49,522 nt of DNA, taken from positions 1 to 49,522 of the forward strand of contig JAQVLN010000005.1 of assembly GCA_028704155.1 (NCBI GenBank), in the 5' to 3' direction. The notes under the pieces were generated by a model. It searched no databases and was not told where the DNA came from. It was given only the letters and a program-made list of their open reading frames with translations. The DNA is from Desulfitobacteriaceae bacterium. GTDB lineage: Bacteria > Bacillota > Desulfitobacteriia > Desulfitobacteriales > Desulfitobacteriaceae. Shown here piece after piece: positions 2,787 through 44,471 of this stretch. Every line of letters begins with the position of its first letter. Position 1 is the stretch's first letter. The translations under genes were made by a program, and so were the position numbers.

Positions 2787-2866
2787 AAAGTATTTCAATG
2801 ATTATTTATTTCTTGCGGAAACTTTTTAATAGAGACAGATTATACGGGAGGAGGAATGACTATATT

Positions 2867-3685
2867 ATGAAAAATCTTTTTCAACGCAATTGGTATATTG
2901 AGGTCCGCCGAAGTAATGACAGGGTGCTTAAAGCTGTAACCAGTTACTTGGATACGTATCGGGAAGCTGCTGCCAGACTGTTAATCGATACTAACTCATT
3001 CATAGTTGAAGAAGCCATATGGGAAGAACAAAGATCCGCGGGACCAATAAGTATTAATTCTCGCCAGGTTACACCTCTGCTTGGTTCAGAAGCCTACTTT
3101 AGTTCCGGTCCCAAGCTTAAAGAGGTTACAGCATTTCTTAATGATCCTCTGGCAGGTTCTTTATTTTCTGAAAGTATCAAAGCAATTATTCAGGCTGAGA
3201 CATTTCTTTGGGAAAAACGCGACTATTCCTCGGAAGAAGAATATGAAAACAAATGGATGGAATTCTATGCGGGCTCCTGCAGATACTACAGCAATCCGGA
3301 CCGGATAACCAGGAGTTGGTATACTCATGTGGGAGAAAGCAAAAGAGATGGTAATTTGTTTATTCGGTTCAAAACCCAAAGCCTACTTGGTTTAGGGAAT
3401 GATCACTACTTATTGACTGGAAATCTGAGTGATTCTTTCCATGAGCTTAATGTAAATCTTAAACTAAACGGGTTCACCGTTGAGGATACTGATGGAATAC
3501 TCCTGCGCTCACCTGACCGAGTTTGCAGAGAAGCGACTATTTTACTTAACAACCTGCACGGGAATAATTTACGAAACTTAAATAAAAAAGAAATAGCAAA
3601 TATTTTAGGTAAGGGACAAGGATGCGTTCATTTGATAGATTTAGTAAATGATTGCGCCCAAATTCTGGAACTTTTTAAGTTATAA
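2867..3685 (+). CDS. DUF2889-like protein, first paralogue
   Basis: This is a 272-residue protein of unknown function. The C-terminal half matches what I know of DUF2889: a D-x-x-H-E strand segment, a C-x-E-A motif, a predicted amphipathic helix, and the closing LGKGQGCVHLIDLVNDCAQI, which corresponds to the family's GC-T/V-HL-x-(D/E)L ending. The N-terminal half (residues about 25-110) looks like a weaker repeat of the same unit (DTYREAAARLL). No signal peptide or membrane span is visible. I start at the ATG at 2867, after GGGAGGAGG, because its paralogue at 13038 begins with the same residues (M-K-x-L-F-Q). The two paralogues sit on the outer flanks of the liv/ligase/isoprenoid-synthase block and both point rightward. 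Confidence 0.75.
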   Translation: MKNLFQRNWYIEVRRSNDRVLKAVTSYLDTYREAAARLLIDTNSFIVEEAIWEEQRSAGPISINSRQVTPLLGSEAYFSSGPKLKEVTAFLNDPLAGSLFSESIKAIIQAETFLWEKRDYSSEEEYENKWMEFYAGSCRYYSNPDRITRSWYTHVGESKRDGNLFIRFKTQSLLGLGNDHYLLTGNLSDSFHELNVNLKLNGFTVEDTDGILLRSPDRVCREATILLNNLHGNNLRNLNKKEIANILGKGQGCVHLIDLVNDCAQILELFKL

Positions 3686-10328: not shown

Positions 10329-12743
10329 TTAGTGATCCCTGTTAACAATGTAATTCAGCAACTGTTTGAGAAAAGTGGTATCAACCTGAATATCAGCCAA
10401 TTTCTCAATAGACTGACAGTAATGGTCCCACATTTCTTTTTGGGCATCCTCAGGTCCGAGAATTGTCACAAAAGTTGCACTGCTGTTCTCAGTATCTTTA
10501 CCGGTGAGTTTTCCGAGCAAGTCAGGATCACCTTCGGCATCAAGCAAGTCATCCTTGATTTGGAAGGCAATACCGGCATGACGGGCAAATTCTTTTATAG
10601 CCTTGATCTGAGCTTCTGTTTCCCCGACAAGAAGGGCCGGCATAACAAGTGAAGCCTCAAAAGCAAGCCCGGTTTTATAAAAACACATCGTGTTCAACTG
10701 TTCCAGGGTTAATTGTTTGCCTTTGGAATCCAGGTCCATCAATTGTCCCTTACACATTTCCTGAGTTGAGTAGGCTACATAACGAATTAAATCCAGCATA
10801 GTTTGGGAAGAAAAACGGTTAAGATAAGTGAGTTCTTCAATAGCCTTTTGGGTCAAAAAGAGACCGGTTAATTCAGCTACGGCAATATTATAGGTTAAAT
10901 GCAGAGTAGGACGGCAACGGCGGGTATCGGCATTATCCTGGGAAGGCAGATCATCGTAAATTAGTGATGCTGTATGCATATATTCCAATGAACGCATAAG
11001 CGGTATTATCGCTTCCGGCTCTAATCCATACCCCTTGACACCAATAGCCCAAGCCATCAACGGCCGGATGTGTTTCCCCCCACCTTCCAAGCTGTAATTA
11101 GCAGCATTGACAATTGTTTGATTAAGCAAAGGATTACTGAAAGTTTTGGGAATACTCATCATACCGCTGATCTGTCTACCTATATTTTTTATAGTATCTG
11201 TGAAGGCTTCGCGTTCAGCTCTTTCTTTTTTCAGCATAGTAATCATCCGATCACAAAGTAGTTTGTCCAGAAAATCTACACCATCTGCTTTACTGACCAT
11301 ATTCTGTACAATATCGTTGAATTTTGAATCAGCAGGAGTAAACAGCAACATAACTTCATTATATTTTTCAGTTCCTATTCGTTCTTTAAAACGTTTCAGT
11401 TCATTAAAGGTACGGTCCAGAATCACTTCACAGGTTTTGTTATCGGAATGGTACACATTATGAATCAGATTACAAATTACTGTCCAGTATAACTCAAAAG
11501 GGTTGATCAAGTCTGGCCGCAGATTATGATATTTCATATAGTAGGTATAGGGTGTTACTGTACCTTCCTTTATGTCTTCAAACATATCTGCAAAATCATC
11601 GGCCAATTGGTTATAGATGCCATAATAAAATATCCTGTTGACAAAGCCGTCATCCTCAGTGGCACCGATTACCGAACGGGCTATCAATCTGGAATAAGAT
11701 GACTTCAAAATAATCGGAATATATAAATCTTCATTGCTGTAATTAGGACAGGACAGATCTTTCATTCTGTCTACTTCTTGTGAATGAAAAAACACATAAG
11801 CCTGCTCAACAAATAATCTTAAAGCATCAGGCGGCTGATTGGCCTTGATATACTCGAAGAAATCCCGTAGTTCCGACTGGATATGGTGTATCAGTTCAGC
11901 ATGTTTCCCAGCCCATTCTCTTAATTCCGGCACATATCCGGTTATCAGTGTTGTACGGATTAGATCAGAATACTCGATTTTCTCGTCAGGGAATAAAACA
12001 TTGGAACCCAAAAGATCATCGATTAACCAATAGGTCAGACCATATGAATAACCCAGCCGGATAGCTTCCTCTATTTTGCGGGACTTTACTTCCGGTGAGG
12101 TCTTATTACCGATTTCTTCAATCGCATGCATCAGGACACTGGCAATAATTTTAAACAGTTTTCGTTGAGCGTTCTCGGCATCCATCTCTTGCGGAAGATA
12201 ATTGGACATAGTCTTCAGTTTATCCATCAGCCACAGCATTGTTGATTCAACGCCTTCTTCCTGAGCCTTTCTGTACCACTTAACCAAGCTTATCTCCTGA
12301 GCTTTGTCTGCTTTATTTGCAGAAACCAAACGGAGCAGTTGATCCTTTATACTATCAACAGCCTGCCGGATATGTGCTTGGGTAAGTGGTGAATCCAGTT
12401 CTTTTCCCATATCACGCATGAAAATATAGGAAATGCTTCGATCTAGATAATTATCCAGCTTTCCGGTGTAATCCAACCATTTGATATACTGGTGATAATC
12501 CAGCGGATTAAGTTTGTTATTCCTGCCTAAAAAATGTTGGAAATAACGAGTATTATGCTTGTATTTCCACGACTTAATATCTTCTATCAGGACCGGAACA
12601 TAGGTTCTGAGGGTAACCTGCTGGTAAAGAAATTTAAAATAAGCAGCAGCCTTCTGTTCCACCAACCGGTAACATTCTGTGCTATCAATAAGAGTGTCAT
12701 TAATCAGTTTTGGTGCGTGAGTGTCTAAAATTCTTGCATTCAT
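10329..12743 (-). CDS. Chimeric isoprenoid synthase: C-terminal polyprenyl synthase plus a divergent N-terminal domain
   Basis: This 804-residue protein is more than twice the usual size of a polyprenyl synthase. Residues about 520-800 are a full trans-prenyltransferase domain: GGGKHIRP (about 554), first Asp-rich motif DDLPSQD followed by TRRCRP (about 597-610), KTGLAFEASL, and second Asp-rich motif DDLLD (about 731). It should condense isopentenyl diphosphate with an allylic diphosphate; the DDx4D form fits farnesyl/geranylgeranyl synthases. Residues 1-500 are helical and unrecognised. They contain two acidic motifs in the order seen in class I isoprenoid synthases, YWLIDDLLGS (about 238-247) and NQLADDFADMFEDIKEG (about 378-394). 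The second resembles the helix-H motif of squalene/phytoene-type enzymes. This would make a two-domain synthase like fungal cyclase-prenyltransferase fusions, which is an inference. No membrane spans are seen. The gene is upstream of livK on the same strand, but livK has its own promoter. Confidence 0.85.
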   Translation of the reverse strand: MNARILDTHAPKLINDTLIDSTECYRLVEQKAAAYFKFLYQQVTLRTYVPVLIEDIKSWKYKHNTRYFQHFLGRNNKLNPLDYHQYIKWLDYTGKLDNYLDRSISYIFMRDMGKELDSPLTQAHIRQAVDSIKDQLLRLVSANKADKAQEISLVKWYRKAQEEGVESTMLWLMDKLKTMSNYLPQEMDAENAQRKLFKIIASVLMHAIEEIGNKTSPEVKSRKIEEAIRLGYSYGLTYWLIDDLLGSNVLFPDEKIEYSDLIRTTLITGYVPELREWAGKHAELIHHIQSELRDFFEYIKANQPPDALRLFVEQAYVFFHSQEVDRMKDLSCPNYSNEDLYIPIILKSSYSRLIARSVIGATEDDGFVNRIFYYGIYNQLADDFADMFEDIKEGTVTPYTYYMKYHNLRPDLINPFELYWTVICNLIHNVYHSDNKTCEVILDRTFNELKRFKERIGTEKYNEVMLLFTPADSKFNDIVQNMVSKADGVDFLDKLLCDRMITMLKKERAEREAFTDTIKNIGRQISGMMSIPKTFSNPLLNQTIVNAANYSLEGGGKHIRPLMAWAIGVKGYGLEPEAIIPLMRSLEYMHTASLIYDDLPSQDNADTRRCRPTLHLTYNIAVAELTGLFLTQKAIEELTYLNRFSSQTMLDLIRYVAYSTQEMCKGQLMDLDSKGKQLTLEQLNTMCFYKTGLAFEASLVMPALLVGETEAQIKAIKEFARHAGIAFQIKDDLLDAEGDPDLLGKLTGKDTENSSATFVTILGPEDAQKEMWDHYCQSIEKLADIQVDTTFLKQLLNYIVNRDH

Positions 12744-13037: not shown

Positions 13038-13865
13038 ATGATGAAAAGCCTTTTTCAATGCAATTGGTATACAGAGGTAAATCGTACCACCAACAGGCAG
13101 CTTAAGTCTAAAACAAGTTACCTGGATACACAGCGCGAAGCTGCTGCCTGTTTACTGGTTGATACAAATACATTCATAATTGGAGATGCCGTTCTGGAAG
13201 AACAAAGGTCTTTTGAATCAATAGGTTCCAGGTCCCGCCAAGTCGCCCCCCTGATTGGCTCACAGGCCCATTTGGGTGCCGGTCCCAACTTAAAAAAAAC
13301 AGCAGCCTTTCTTGATGACCCTCTGGCAGTTGCCTTATTTGCGGAATCAATCAAAGGAATTATTCAGGCTGAACGCTTTCTTCTGGAAGAACGCGGTTAC
13401 GCTTCCCTGGAAGACTTTTTTCTCATGTGGAGAAAAAACGGCCTGAACTCCTGCTGTTTGTACAGCAACCTGGACCGAGTAGCTTTTAATAAGATTGACC
13501 GGGGCGATTATCTTCGGCCTGAGGGCAATTTATTTGTCCGTTTTAAAACCCAAAACCTATATCGGTTAGGACAGGAGCAATACCTATTGACAGGCTATTT
13601 CAGCGACAGTCGGCACGAGACAAGTGTCATTCTTAAATTAAAAGGCACTACCGTAATAGAAGCAGACGGCGGATTCGTACGTGCTCCCAATCCAATTTGC
13701 CCGGAGGCGGATATTGTTCTGTCCAATCTGCTCGGTGTTGACCTAAAAGGCCTGGCTAAAAAAGAAATAGCAGCCATCCTGGGCAAAGGTCAAGGCTGCG
13801 TCCATATGATTGATCTGGTAAATGATTGTACACAAATACTCAGTTATCTCCAGCTTTCCAGATGA
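13038..13865 (+). CDS. DUF2889-like protein, second paralogue
   Basis: This is a 275-residue paralogue of the protein at 2867. They align end to end, with the same opening (M-K-x-L-F-Q-x-NWY), the DTQREAAACLLVDTNTF segment, the FVRFKTQ block and the closing GKGQGCVHMIDLVNDCTQI. The C-terminal half fits DUF2889. The N-terminal half repeats the pattern in weaker form (D-T-x-R-E, then IG-x-x-x-x-LG-x-G-x-x-x-K-K, then ending IIQA). The function is unknown. No signal peptide or transmembrane segment is visible. AGGAGG lies five bases before the ATG; a second ATG follows immediately. The gene diverges from the chimeric isoprenoid synthase and converges on sbcC with a gap of only 23 bp. Confidence 0.75.
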   Translation: MMKSLFQCNWYTEVNRTTNRQLKSKTSYLDTQREAAACLLVDTNTFIIGDAVLEEQRSFESIGSRSRQVAPLIGSQAHLGAGPNLKKTAAFLDDPLAVALFAESIKGIIQAERFLLEERGYASLEDFFLMWRKNGLNSCCLYSNLDRVAFNKIDRGDYLRPEGNLFVRFKTQNLYRLGQEQYLLTGYFSDSRHETSVILKLKGTTVIEADGGFVRAPNPICPEADIVLSNLLGVDLKGLAKKEIAAILGKGQGCVHMIDLVNDCTQILSYLQLSR

Positions 13866-43054: not shown

Positions 43055-43185
43055 CTCTTATCCGGAGTGGTGGAGGGACTGGCCCGATGAAACCCGGCAA
43101 CCCGCTCTGTACCATAGATTGCCTTGGTACACTCAGAGCATGGTGCTAATTCCTGCAGGAGAGAAAATCTTCTGGCAGATAAGAG
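43055..43185 (+). ncRNA. SAM-I (S-box) riboswitch
   Basis: P1 is CTCTTATC (43055-43062) with GATAAGAG (43178-43185). Between them come the S-box hallmarks in order: GAGTGGTGGAGGGACTGGCC, CGATGAAACCCGGCAACC, the P3/P4 stems and GGTGCTAATTCCTGC. With the terminator at 43202-43230 it should switch transcription off when S-adenosylmethionine is plentiful. Confidence 0.97.
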
Positions 43186-43277: not shown

Positions 43278-44471
43278 ATGGGTGTTGAAAAGACTTACGC
43301 AGAAATCAATGCCAGGATCAAGTCGGGTCAGGCCGTGGTCGTCACGGCAGATGAACTAATTACTATTGTCAAGGAAAAGGGTCTGAGCCAAGCCACTCGG
43401 GAAGTCGACGTTGTTACAACCGGCACTTTTGCACCAATGTGCTCCTCCGGCGCATTTCTCTCCCTTGGACATACTACTCCGCGTATGAAAATGCAAAAAG
43501 TATGGCTGAACGGTGTACCTGCCTATTCAGGTTTGGCTGCAGTAGATGCATATATCGGAGCCACAGAGGTACCGGAAGATGATCCCTTAAACGGTAATTA
43601 TCCCGGTGAGTTTCGTTATGGCGGCGGGCATGTAATCCAGGACCTGGTGGCCCGCAAACCCATTAGAATGAAAGCCCTGGCTTATGGTACCGACTGTTAT
43701 CCACGCCGGGAAATCGATACTACCATTACAATAGATTCTATTAATGAAGCTACTTTATTTAACCCGCGCAATGCTTATCAAAATTATAACTGTGCCGTAA
43801 ATCTTACTGATAGAATAATCTATACCTATATGGGTATGCTTAAACCTCGGCTTGGAAACGCCCACTATTCTACTTCCGGACAGCTCAGTCCGCTCCTGAA
43901 GGACCCCAATTTTCAAACAATTGGAATTGGCACGCGTATCTTCCTGGGAGGCGGAATTGGCTATATAGCTTGGCACGGTACTCAGCATTTTCCTTCAATT
44001 CAGTCAGTAGATGGAAAAGATCTTGGGCCGGCAGGAGGTACCTTGGCGGTAATCGGTGATTTAAAACAAATGAGCCCGCGCTGGCTGGTAGGAACCAGCT
44101 ACCTTGGTTATGGTGCTACACTCAGTGTGGGAATCGGGGTGCCTATCCCAATATTAAACGAAGAAATCGCCAGATATGCCGCTGCAACAGATGAAGAATT
44201 GTTCGCTCCCATTGTCGACTATGGTGATGATTACCCTAGTATGAAACCAGGCAACCTTGGCTTCATCAGTTATGCCGATCTTAAATCCGGTGAAATTACC
44301 GTAAATGGCCGAAAAACCAAAACCGCTCCTCTCTCCAGTCTGCCCAGAGCACGGGAAATTGCCTCCACTCTGAAAAATTGGATCCTGGAATGTCAATTCC
44401 TCATAAACGAGCCAGTTCAATTGCTGCCGTCACCGACTGATGGTCTTAAATCCAATACTCTGAAAGGCTGA
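43278..44471 (+). CDS. Homocysteine biosynthesis protein (DUF39, COG1900)
   Basis: This 397-residue DUF39 protein belongs to the L-aspartate-semialdehyde sulfurtransferase group, which makes homocysteine directly from aspartate semialdehyde in methanogens, sulfate reducers and related anaerobes. It has two cysteines in conserved contexts, FAPMCSSGAFLSLGH (Cys55) and YGTDCYPRREIDT (Cys140). Other family segments are GGGIGYIAWHGTQHFPS and SPRWLVGTSYLGYGATL. The C-terminal CBS pair found in some archaeal members is absent. The ATG at 43278 has AAGGAGAGG upstream. It heads a three-gene operon under a SAM-I riboswitch, which fits a methionine-pathway role. Confidence 0.92.
   Translation: MGVEKTYAEINARIKSGQAVVVTADELITIVKEKGLSQATREVDVVTTGTFAPMCSSGAFLSLGHTTPRMKMQKVWLNGVPAYSGLAAVDAYIGATEVPEDDPLNGNYPGEFRYGGGHVIQDLVARKPIRMKALAYGTDCYPRREIDTTITIDSINEATLFNPRNAYQNYNCAVNLTDRIIYTYMGMLKPRLGNAHYSTSGQLSPLLKDPNFQTIGIGTRIFLGGGIGYIAWHGTQHFPSIQSVDGKDLGPAGGTLAVIGDLKQMSPRWLVGTSYLGYGATLSVGIGVPIPILNEEIARYAAATDEELFAPIVDYGDDYPSMKPGNLGFISYADLKSGEITVNGRKTKTAPLSSLPRAREIASTLKNWILECQFLINEPVQLLPSPTDGLKSNTLKG

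Follow-up and report, generated by a model that had tools for sequence, protein, structure and literature searches.

A bacterial two-domain isoprenoid synthase combining a trans-prenyltransferase with a divergent, putatively class I amino domain

Introduction

Fungal prenyltransferase–terpene synthases (PTTS) join an amino class I terpene synthase domain to a carboxy prenyltransferase domain and have been described as unique to fungi (PMC8307374), with PaFS as an example of a fusion that channels GGPP (PMC8190136). In insects, prenyl synthases that have turned into terpene synthases can be told by substitutions at their IPP-binding residues (PMC12376265), and in fungi IDS-derived terpene synthases arose recently from GGPP synthase, one active-site Arg-to-Pro change being enough to make a nerolidol producer of a GGPP synthase (PMC7484799). 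The small subunit of plant GPPS is devoid of the DDxxD motif (PMC7839719). Here we analyse a gene for a protein of 804 residues in a 49,522-nucleotide stretch (the window; contig JAQVLN010000005.1) from a Desulfitobacteriaceae bacterium, for which a preliminary description from the sequence had proposed a fusion of two isoprenoid synthase domains.

Results

A prenyltransferase fused to a second domain of about 500 residues

The gene and its parts are arranged in the window as follows.

10329–12743, minus strand: whole gene of the two-domain isoprenoid synthase, 804 aa (ORF with ATG start, ribosome-binding site and full-length orthologues)
12309–12743, minus strand: helical amino extension, residues 1–145 (invariant L96, R102, S103, Y106, R110, D111 and G113)
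11268–12308, minus strand: divergent core, very probably class I and trans-prenyltransferase-like, residues 146–492 (prenyl synthase profile matches, weak PF00348 matches)
11154–11267, minus strand: interdomain linker, residues 493–530 (between the core and the PF00348 match)
10332–11153, minus strand: trans-prenyltransferase domain, residues 531–804 (PF00348, NCBIfam FPPsyn)

A ribosome-binding site (AAAGGA, 12756–12751) stands ahead of the 804-codon ORF. Pfam placed PF00348 at residues 542–779 (E 1.3e-50; 172 bits against a gathering cut-off of 27) with no match within residues 1–540, and NCBIfam likewise recognised the carboxy part only (best FPPsyn, 215 bits, under its cut-off). Solved FPP and GGPP synthases matched the protein only from about residue 510 onward. 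Pfam, NCBIfam and PADLOC models left the amino ~500 residues unassigned, and no known family was found for the extension (residues 1–145).

That the prenyl synthase is genuinely joined to a second domain of ~500 residues, as first proposed, was borne out by end-to-end homologues of ~800 residues in many genomes. Alignments with the window protein ran from end to end for a homologue in its own family (69% identical) and for those of Lysinibacillus telephonicus (56%) and Oceanobacillus luteolus (50%). Matches to an amino-half profile occurred in 9 of 399 genomes of the phylum and in 134 of 250 genomes, mostly of 4–8 Mb, of one Bacilli family, which we take to be, probably, the Paenibacillaceae; nearly all copies in this family are single, co-linear ORFs of about 800 codons. 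Since co-linear homologues of ~800 residues recur across families, the fusion is real and not an artefact. Split or frameshifted copies in a few genomes of the Bacilli family (G671, G588 and G561) point to the gene being dispensable there. Within the window's own family the fusion is patchy (3 of 37 genomes), and the trio from this family is nested among Bacilli sequences in a 65-protein tree, which suggests that the family gained it horizontally. Pairwise dN/dS came to about 0.15 in the amino core and 0.17 in the carboxy domain, values indicative of purifying selection on both halves over the time that separates the species.

In the window, a branched-chain amino acid transporter operon lies on one side of the gene and a DUF2889 gene on the other. 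Two DUF2889 paralogues, ~9 kb apart (2798–3682 and 13038–13862, both plus strand), flank the transporter and synthase genes, and a SAM riboswitch (S box leader, RF00162, 86 bits) is found at 43055–43185 (plus strand), just upstream of an ORF at 43278. No conserved neighbour of the fusion gene emerged from the 22 loci compared, and a gene-cluster explanation was therefore rejected; this fits a one-gene pathway. A reading as a defence gene was rejected for want of a PADLOC match.

The carboxy domain is a plain trans-prenyltransferase

Three elements of the carboxy domain bear on its activity and product.

10935–10955, minus strand: FARM, DDLPSQD, residues 597–603 (D597, D598 and D603 invariant)
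10968–10970, minus strand: A592, five residues ahead of the FARM (Ala in 63 of 64)
10539–10553, minus strand: SARM, DDLLD, residues 731–735 (D731, D732 and D735 invariant)

Besides the FARM (DDx4D) and the SARM (DDxxD), K557/R560, R608/R609, GQxxD, KT and Q728 were invariant in 64 sequences, and with these motifs intact the domain should be active. The prenyltransferase motifs ascribed to this part in the preliminary description, and backed by the PF00348 match, are thus in place, save that RRG reads RRC in the window copy (G610C), C610 being unique among 65 homologues. A small residue five positions before the FARM permits products of C20 or longer. The small A592 of the fusion occupies this position, at which the housekeeping IspA of related genomes has Tyr, and its presence suggests that the carboxy domain makes products of C20 or longer. 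Separate IspA-type and long-chain synthases are also encoded in the window's genome, so the carboxy domain of the fusion is dedicated rather than housekeeping.

Conserved motifs of the amino core

The amino core contains four conserved elements.

12003–12020, minus strand: motif 1, DDLLGS, residues 242–247 (a third Asp in all other members)
11769–11780, minus strand: Q322-x-x-D325, equivalent of the prenyl synthase GQxxD (in hhalign register with carboxy Q667/D670; Q322 invariant, stand-alone relatives included)
11676–11705, minus strand: K347-S-S-x-S-R352-x3-R356, counterpart of the KT motif (K347, S351, R352 and R356 invariant in 64)
11574–11621, minus strand: motif 2, residues 375–390, G-x3-QLADDFADMFED, SARM-like (G375, Q379, D382, D383, D386 and D390 invariant)

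The two acidic motifs that had been picked out by eye go beyond chance: when the homologues were checked for them, D242, D243, D382, D383, D386 and D390 proved invariant in all 64 homologous fusions. Motif 2 reads D382-D383-F-A-D386-M-F-E-D390 and lies 140 residues from motif 1, a spacing within the ~130–145 of the class I superfamily, although the models are too weak to show the facing of the two motifs. As had also been remarked, the amino half carries no canonical NSE/DTE triad, the second motif being DDxxDxxxD in 64 of 64 fusions, and hence cyclisation by this domain is not diagnosed. At the place corresponding to the canonical GGKRxRP the amino core has AQRKLIK (in an extended, low-confidence alignment), and no RRG pair follows motif 1, the sequence reading x-E-K with x253/E254 where the carboxy domain has R608/R609. 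Conserved basic residues (R194, K195, K198, K255 and R263) lie close to where motif I and RRG would fall and make a second diphosphate site in the amino core possible.

The window copy departs from its relatives at two positions of this region, both unique among the 65 homologues. G246 replaces the third Asp of motif 1 (D246G; D in 63 of 64; codon 246 at 12006–12008), and W239 stands in place of Pro; in the tree of 65 the protein sits on a longer branch than its two sisters do. The aspartate-rich site of this copy may be altered, and D246G may have reduced the activity of its amino site. An earlier suggestion that the amino half could be dead or regulatory is, as regards death, unlikely for the family, given its invariant metal-ligand positions and the low dN/dS of the core, while reduced activity is possible for this one copy.

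Stand-alone relatives of the amino half

A search covering one phylum turned up three relatives of the amino half without a prenyltransferase domain: L108 of 419 aa, L109 of 496 aa, and L031/L107, of which 397+ aa are present before its contig ends. Used as query, L108 recovered fusions at E 4e-6 to 8e-4 and L109 at E 2e-16, and brought in further fusions from additional families of the class. Across fusions and stand-alone proteins 11 columns were invariant (D242, E291, Q322, F372, G375, Q379, L380, D382, D383, D386 and D390, in window numbering, which is core numbering plus 145), and seven of them (D242, Q322, G375, Q379, D382, D383 and D386) fall on motif positions of prenyl synthases. In L109, motif 1 is EDDFID (DDFID) and motif 2 is GMGAIFQLMDDLHDIEIDLEEG, a sequence that very closely resembles the second aspartate-rich motif of prenyl synthases, GxxFQxxDDxxD; this protein also matched PF00348 (0.0085) and SQS_PSY (0.087). 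In the region L127 7538–16747, its gene directly adjoins those for a PLD-like protein, two AAA helicase-type proteins and an Hsp70-like protein, surroundings that resemble a defence-type island. A search for plasmid-borne relatives of the amino half found none.

Profile comparisons place the amino core near trans-prenyl synthases

Profile A7, built from 28 fusion cores and the three stand-alone proteins with no carboxy-domain sequence, gave nine PDB matches at E<=10, of which six were trans-prenyl synthases (E 0.077–1.7), and in its alignment with 6kd7 motif 2 fell on the SARM. With the stand-alone proteins only (profile A8), IspA came first (E 0.19), SARM on SARM; PDB searches with the earlier profiles A3 and A4 brought up no prenyl synthase. 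PF00348 was the commonest weak Pfam match among 38 amino halves (10 of 38; best E 0.0016, sub-threshold), and its gathering cut-off was not reached by the amino core (18.1 bits against 27 for L025; no match for the window copy). When A7 was aligned by hhalign to a carboxy-domain/IspA profile, the score was 28.4 (E 0.0054 in a single comparison) as against 17.2 (E 0.22) for the reversed-profile control, and the register placed Q322/D325 on GQxxD and motif 2 on the SARM. Extended at low confidence, the alignment remained co-linear, with AQRKLIK opposite GGKRxRP and LTYPFIDDL opposite the FARM sequence ASLIxDDL. Against SQS/PSY and DUF2600 the amino core did not rise above reversed controls, in comparisons of low power for shallow alignments, with which hhalign is powerless even for known superfamily pairs; and a prenyl synthase profile scored single amino halves hardly higher than shuffled sequences.

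AF2, given three sequences as input, returned a full-length model of pLDDT 38.7 and, for the core, an all-helical but weak model (pLDDT 51.9, pTM 0.49). Foldseek of the core model against the PDB and viral models gave no significant match. Among the 50 matches listed, the type I diterpene synthase 9m25_B ranked 48th (E 3.2) and had the highest probability (0.41) and the lowest rmsd (5.6), and is only suggestive for a model of this quality.

Taken singly these profile items are weak (E 0.005–1.7), but they agree, in register, on the right family, and residues 146–492 are therefore best read as what is very probably a highly divergent trans-prenyltransferase-like class I domain. The helical context had been likened beforehand to class I terpene synthases or SQS/PSY; the class I type is supported by profile, the likeness being to trans-prenyltransferases rather than to SQS/PSY, DUF2600 or NSE-type enzymes. 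It is very unlikely that the amino half is instead an unrelated all-helical domain with coincidental acidic motifs, for example one with a winged-helix-like motif 1 segment. Such a reading could appeal to the indecisive structure prediction and to the best A7 match in the PDB, the winged-helix protein F93 of an archaeal virus (2co5, E 0.0011). This match spans the motif 1 segment only (11916–12167, residues 193–276, core profile positions 48–131) and leaves motif 2 outside, and probably arose by chance from an LYPxIDxLxDxxxL pattern; six of the nine matches are prenyl synthases, and L109 carries both DDFID and GAIFQLMDDLHD.

A distant homology to prenyl synthases would also suit a non-catalytic partner that sets how long a chain the carboxy domain makes or how it oligomerises, like an intramolecular small subunit, and the loss of D246 and P239 in the window copy points the same way. 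We regard this as improbable, because the plant GPPS small subunit has no DDxxD (PMC7839719), whereas the acidic residues of the amino half are among its best conserved and recur in the stand-alone proteins, which lack a carboxy domain, and because dN/dS of the core about equals that of the carboxy domain.

Proposed function

With scarcely more confidence than an even chance would give, we read the gene as encoding a self-contained bifunctional class I isoprenoid synthase, whose amino domain would convert the carboxy product to a cyclic or rearranged terpene. In a first step, to which the intact motifs point strongly, the carboxy domain would condense IPP with an allylic diphosphate to an all-trans prenyl diphosphate of C20 or longer, most likely a GGPP-like diphosphate. 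In a second, the amino domain, which retains the Mg-binding aspartate motifs, Q379, K347 and QxxD and has lost the canonical GGKRxRP and RRG, would ionise this product and cyclise or rearrange it to a terpene. The fusion would pass the intermediate on to the amino site, in the manner of fungal PT-TS chimeras, and the gene would act alone, without a conserved cluster. The ionisation and cyclisation step is proposed because metal-diphosphate positions are kept and IPP-binding motifs lost, the latter as in the IDS-derived terpene synthases of insects and fungi.

The same residues bear on another possibility, two prenyltransferases in series, with the amino domain as a second coupling enzyme (irregular or head-to-head, or transferring to another acceptor). 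Here the second metal motif, DDxxD as in coupling enzymes and not NSE, the retained QxxD and K, and the invariant R194/K195/K198 where GGKRxRP falls in the extended alignment would all be expected, but the canonical GGKRxRP and RRG pair is absent (x253/E254 against R608/R609) and SQS_PSY profiles show no detectable similarity to the amino core, so that we hold a coupling enzyme to be unlikely, if less so than a non-catalytic partner.

Discussion

If the amino domain does act as a terpene synthase, a single gene may carry the whole path from basic building blocks to a finished terpene, and since one gene should suffice, the product should be findable by a single expression experiment. More tentatively, and with rather less than even confidence, the amino cores and their stand-alone relatives could represent an undescribed bacterial family of terpene synthases, one that evolved from prenyl synthases on a route separate from that of the NSE-type cyclases. 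The fusions would then be the first PT-TS chimeras from bacteria, widespread among Bacilli and building as yet unknown di- or sesterterpenes out of C5 units. Genome mining, in which they register only as 'polyprenyl synthetase', would in that case have overlooked an entire class of terpene-producing enzymes. A literature search covering few subscription journals found no paper on this fusion, and an earlier description is possible.

Among known systems, members of PF00348 such as IspA and CrtE are matched plainly by the carboxy domain; the amino core shares with them QxxD, K and GxxxQLxDDxxD, without GGKRxRP and RRG and below the Pfam cut-off. The amino half resembles the small subunits of heterodimeric prenyl synthases (GPPS-SSU, HexA, HepS) in being remotely prenyl synthase-like and paired with a catalytic unit; unlike the GPPS small subunit, which has no DDxxD (PMC7839719), it keeps both acidic motifs, invariant except for G246 of the window copy. 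The DUF2600/YtpB tetraprenyl-beta-curcumene synthase and SQS/PSY are class I enzymes of Bacilli that likewise have two acidic motifs, and no profile similarity to them was detected. Fungal ILTPS and insect IDS-type TPS are, like the amino core, derived from prenyl synthases with loss of IPP-binding residues, the insect enzymes keeping FARM and SARM. They are single-domain proteins clearly alignable to GGPPS or FPPS, whereas the amino core is far more divergent and is fused to an apparently working prenyltransferase.

A close parallel is with fungal PTTS such as the fusicoccadiene synthase PaFS, which, as the present protein probably does, unite an amino class I-like synthase, a linker and a carboxy trans-prenyltransferase in one chain, with a carboxy domain that, to judge by A592, would likewise be of the C20/C25 type. 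The idea of a bacterial counterpart of the fungal cyclase–prenyltransferase fusions, raised at the outset, holds for the domain order and for an amino domain that is class I-like by profile, and does not extend to the NSE/DTE triad, which is absent. The present protein differs further in being bacterial, in an amino domain that is DDxxD/DDxxD and related to prenyl synthases rather than NSE-type, and in an extra helical extension of ~145 residues. By analogy the fusion may work like a PTTS, but since kingdom, ancestry of the amino domain and second metal motif all differ, we do not file it as one.
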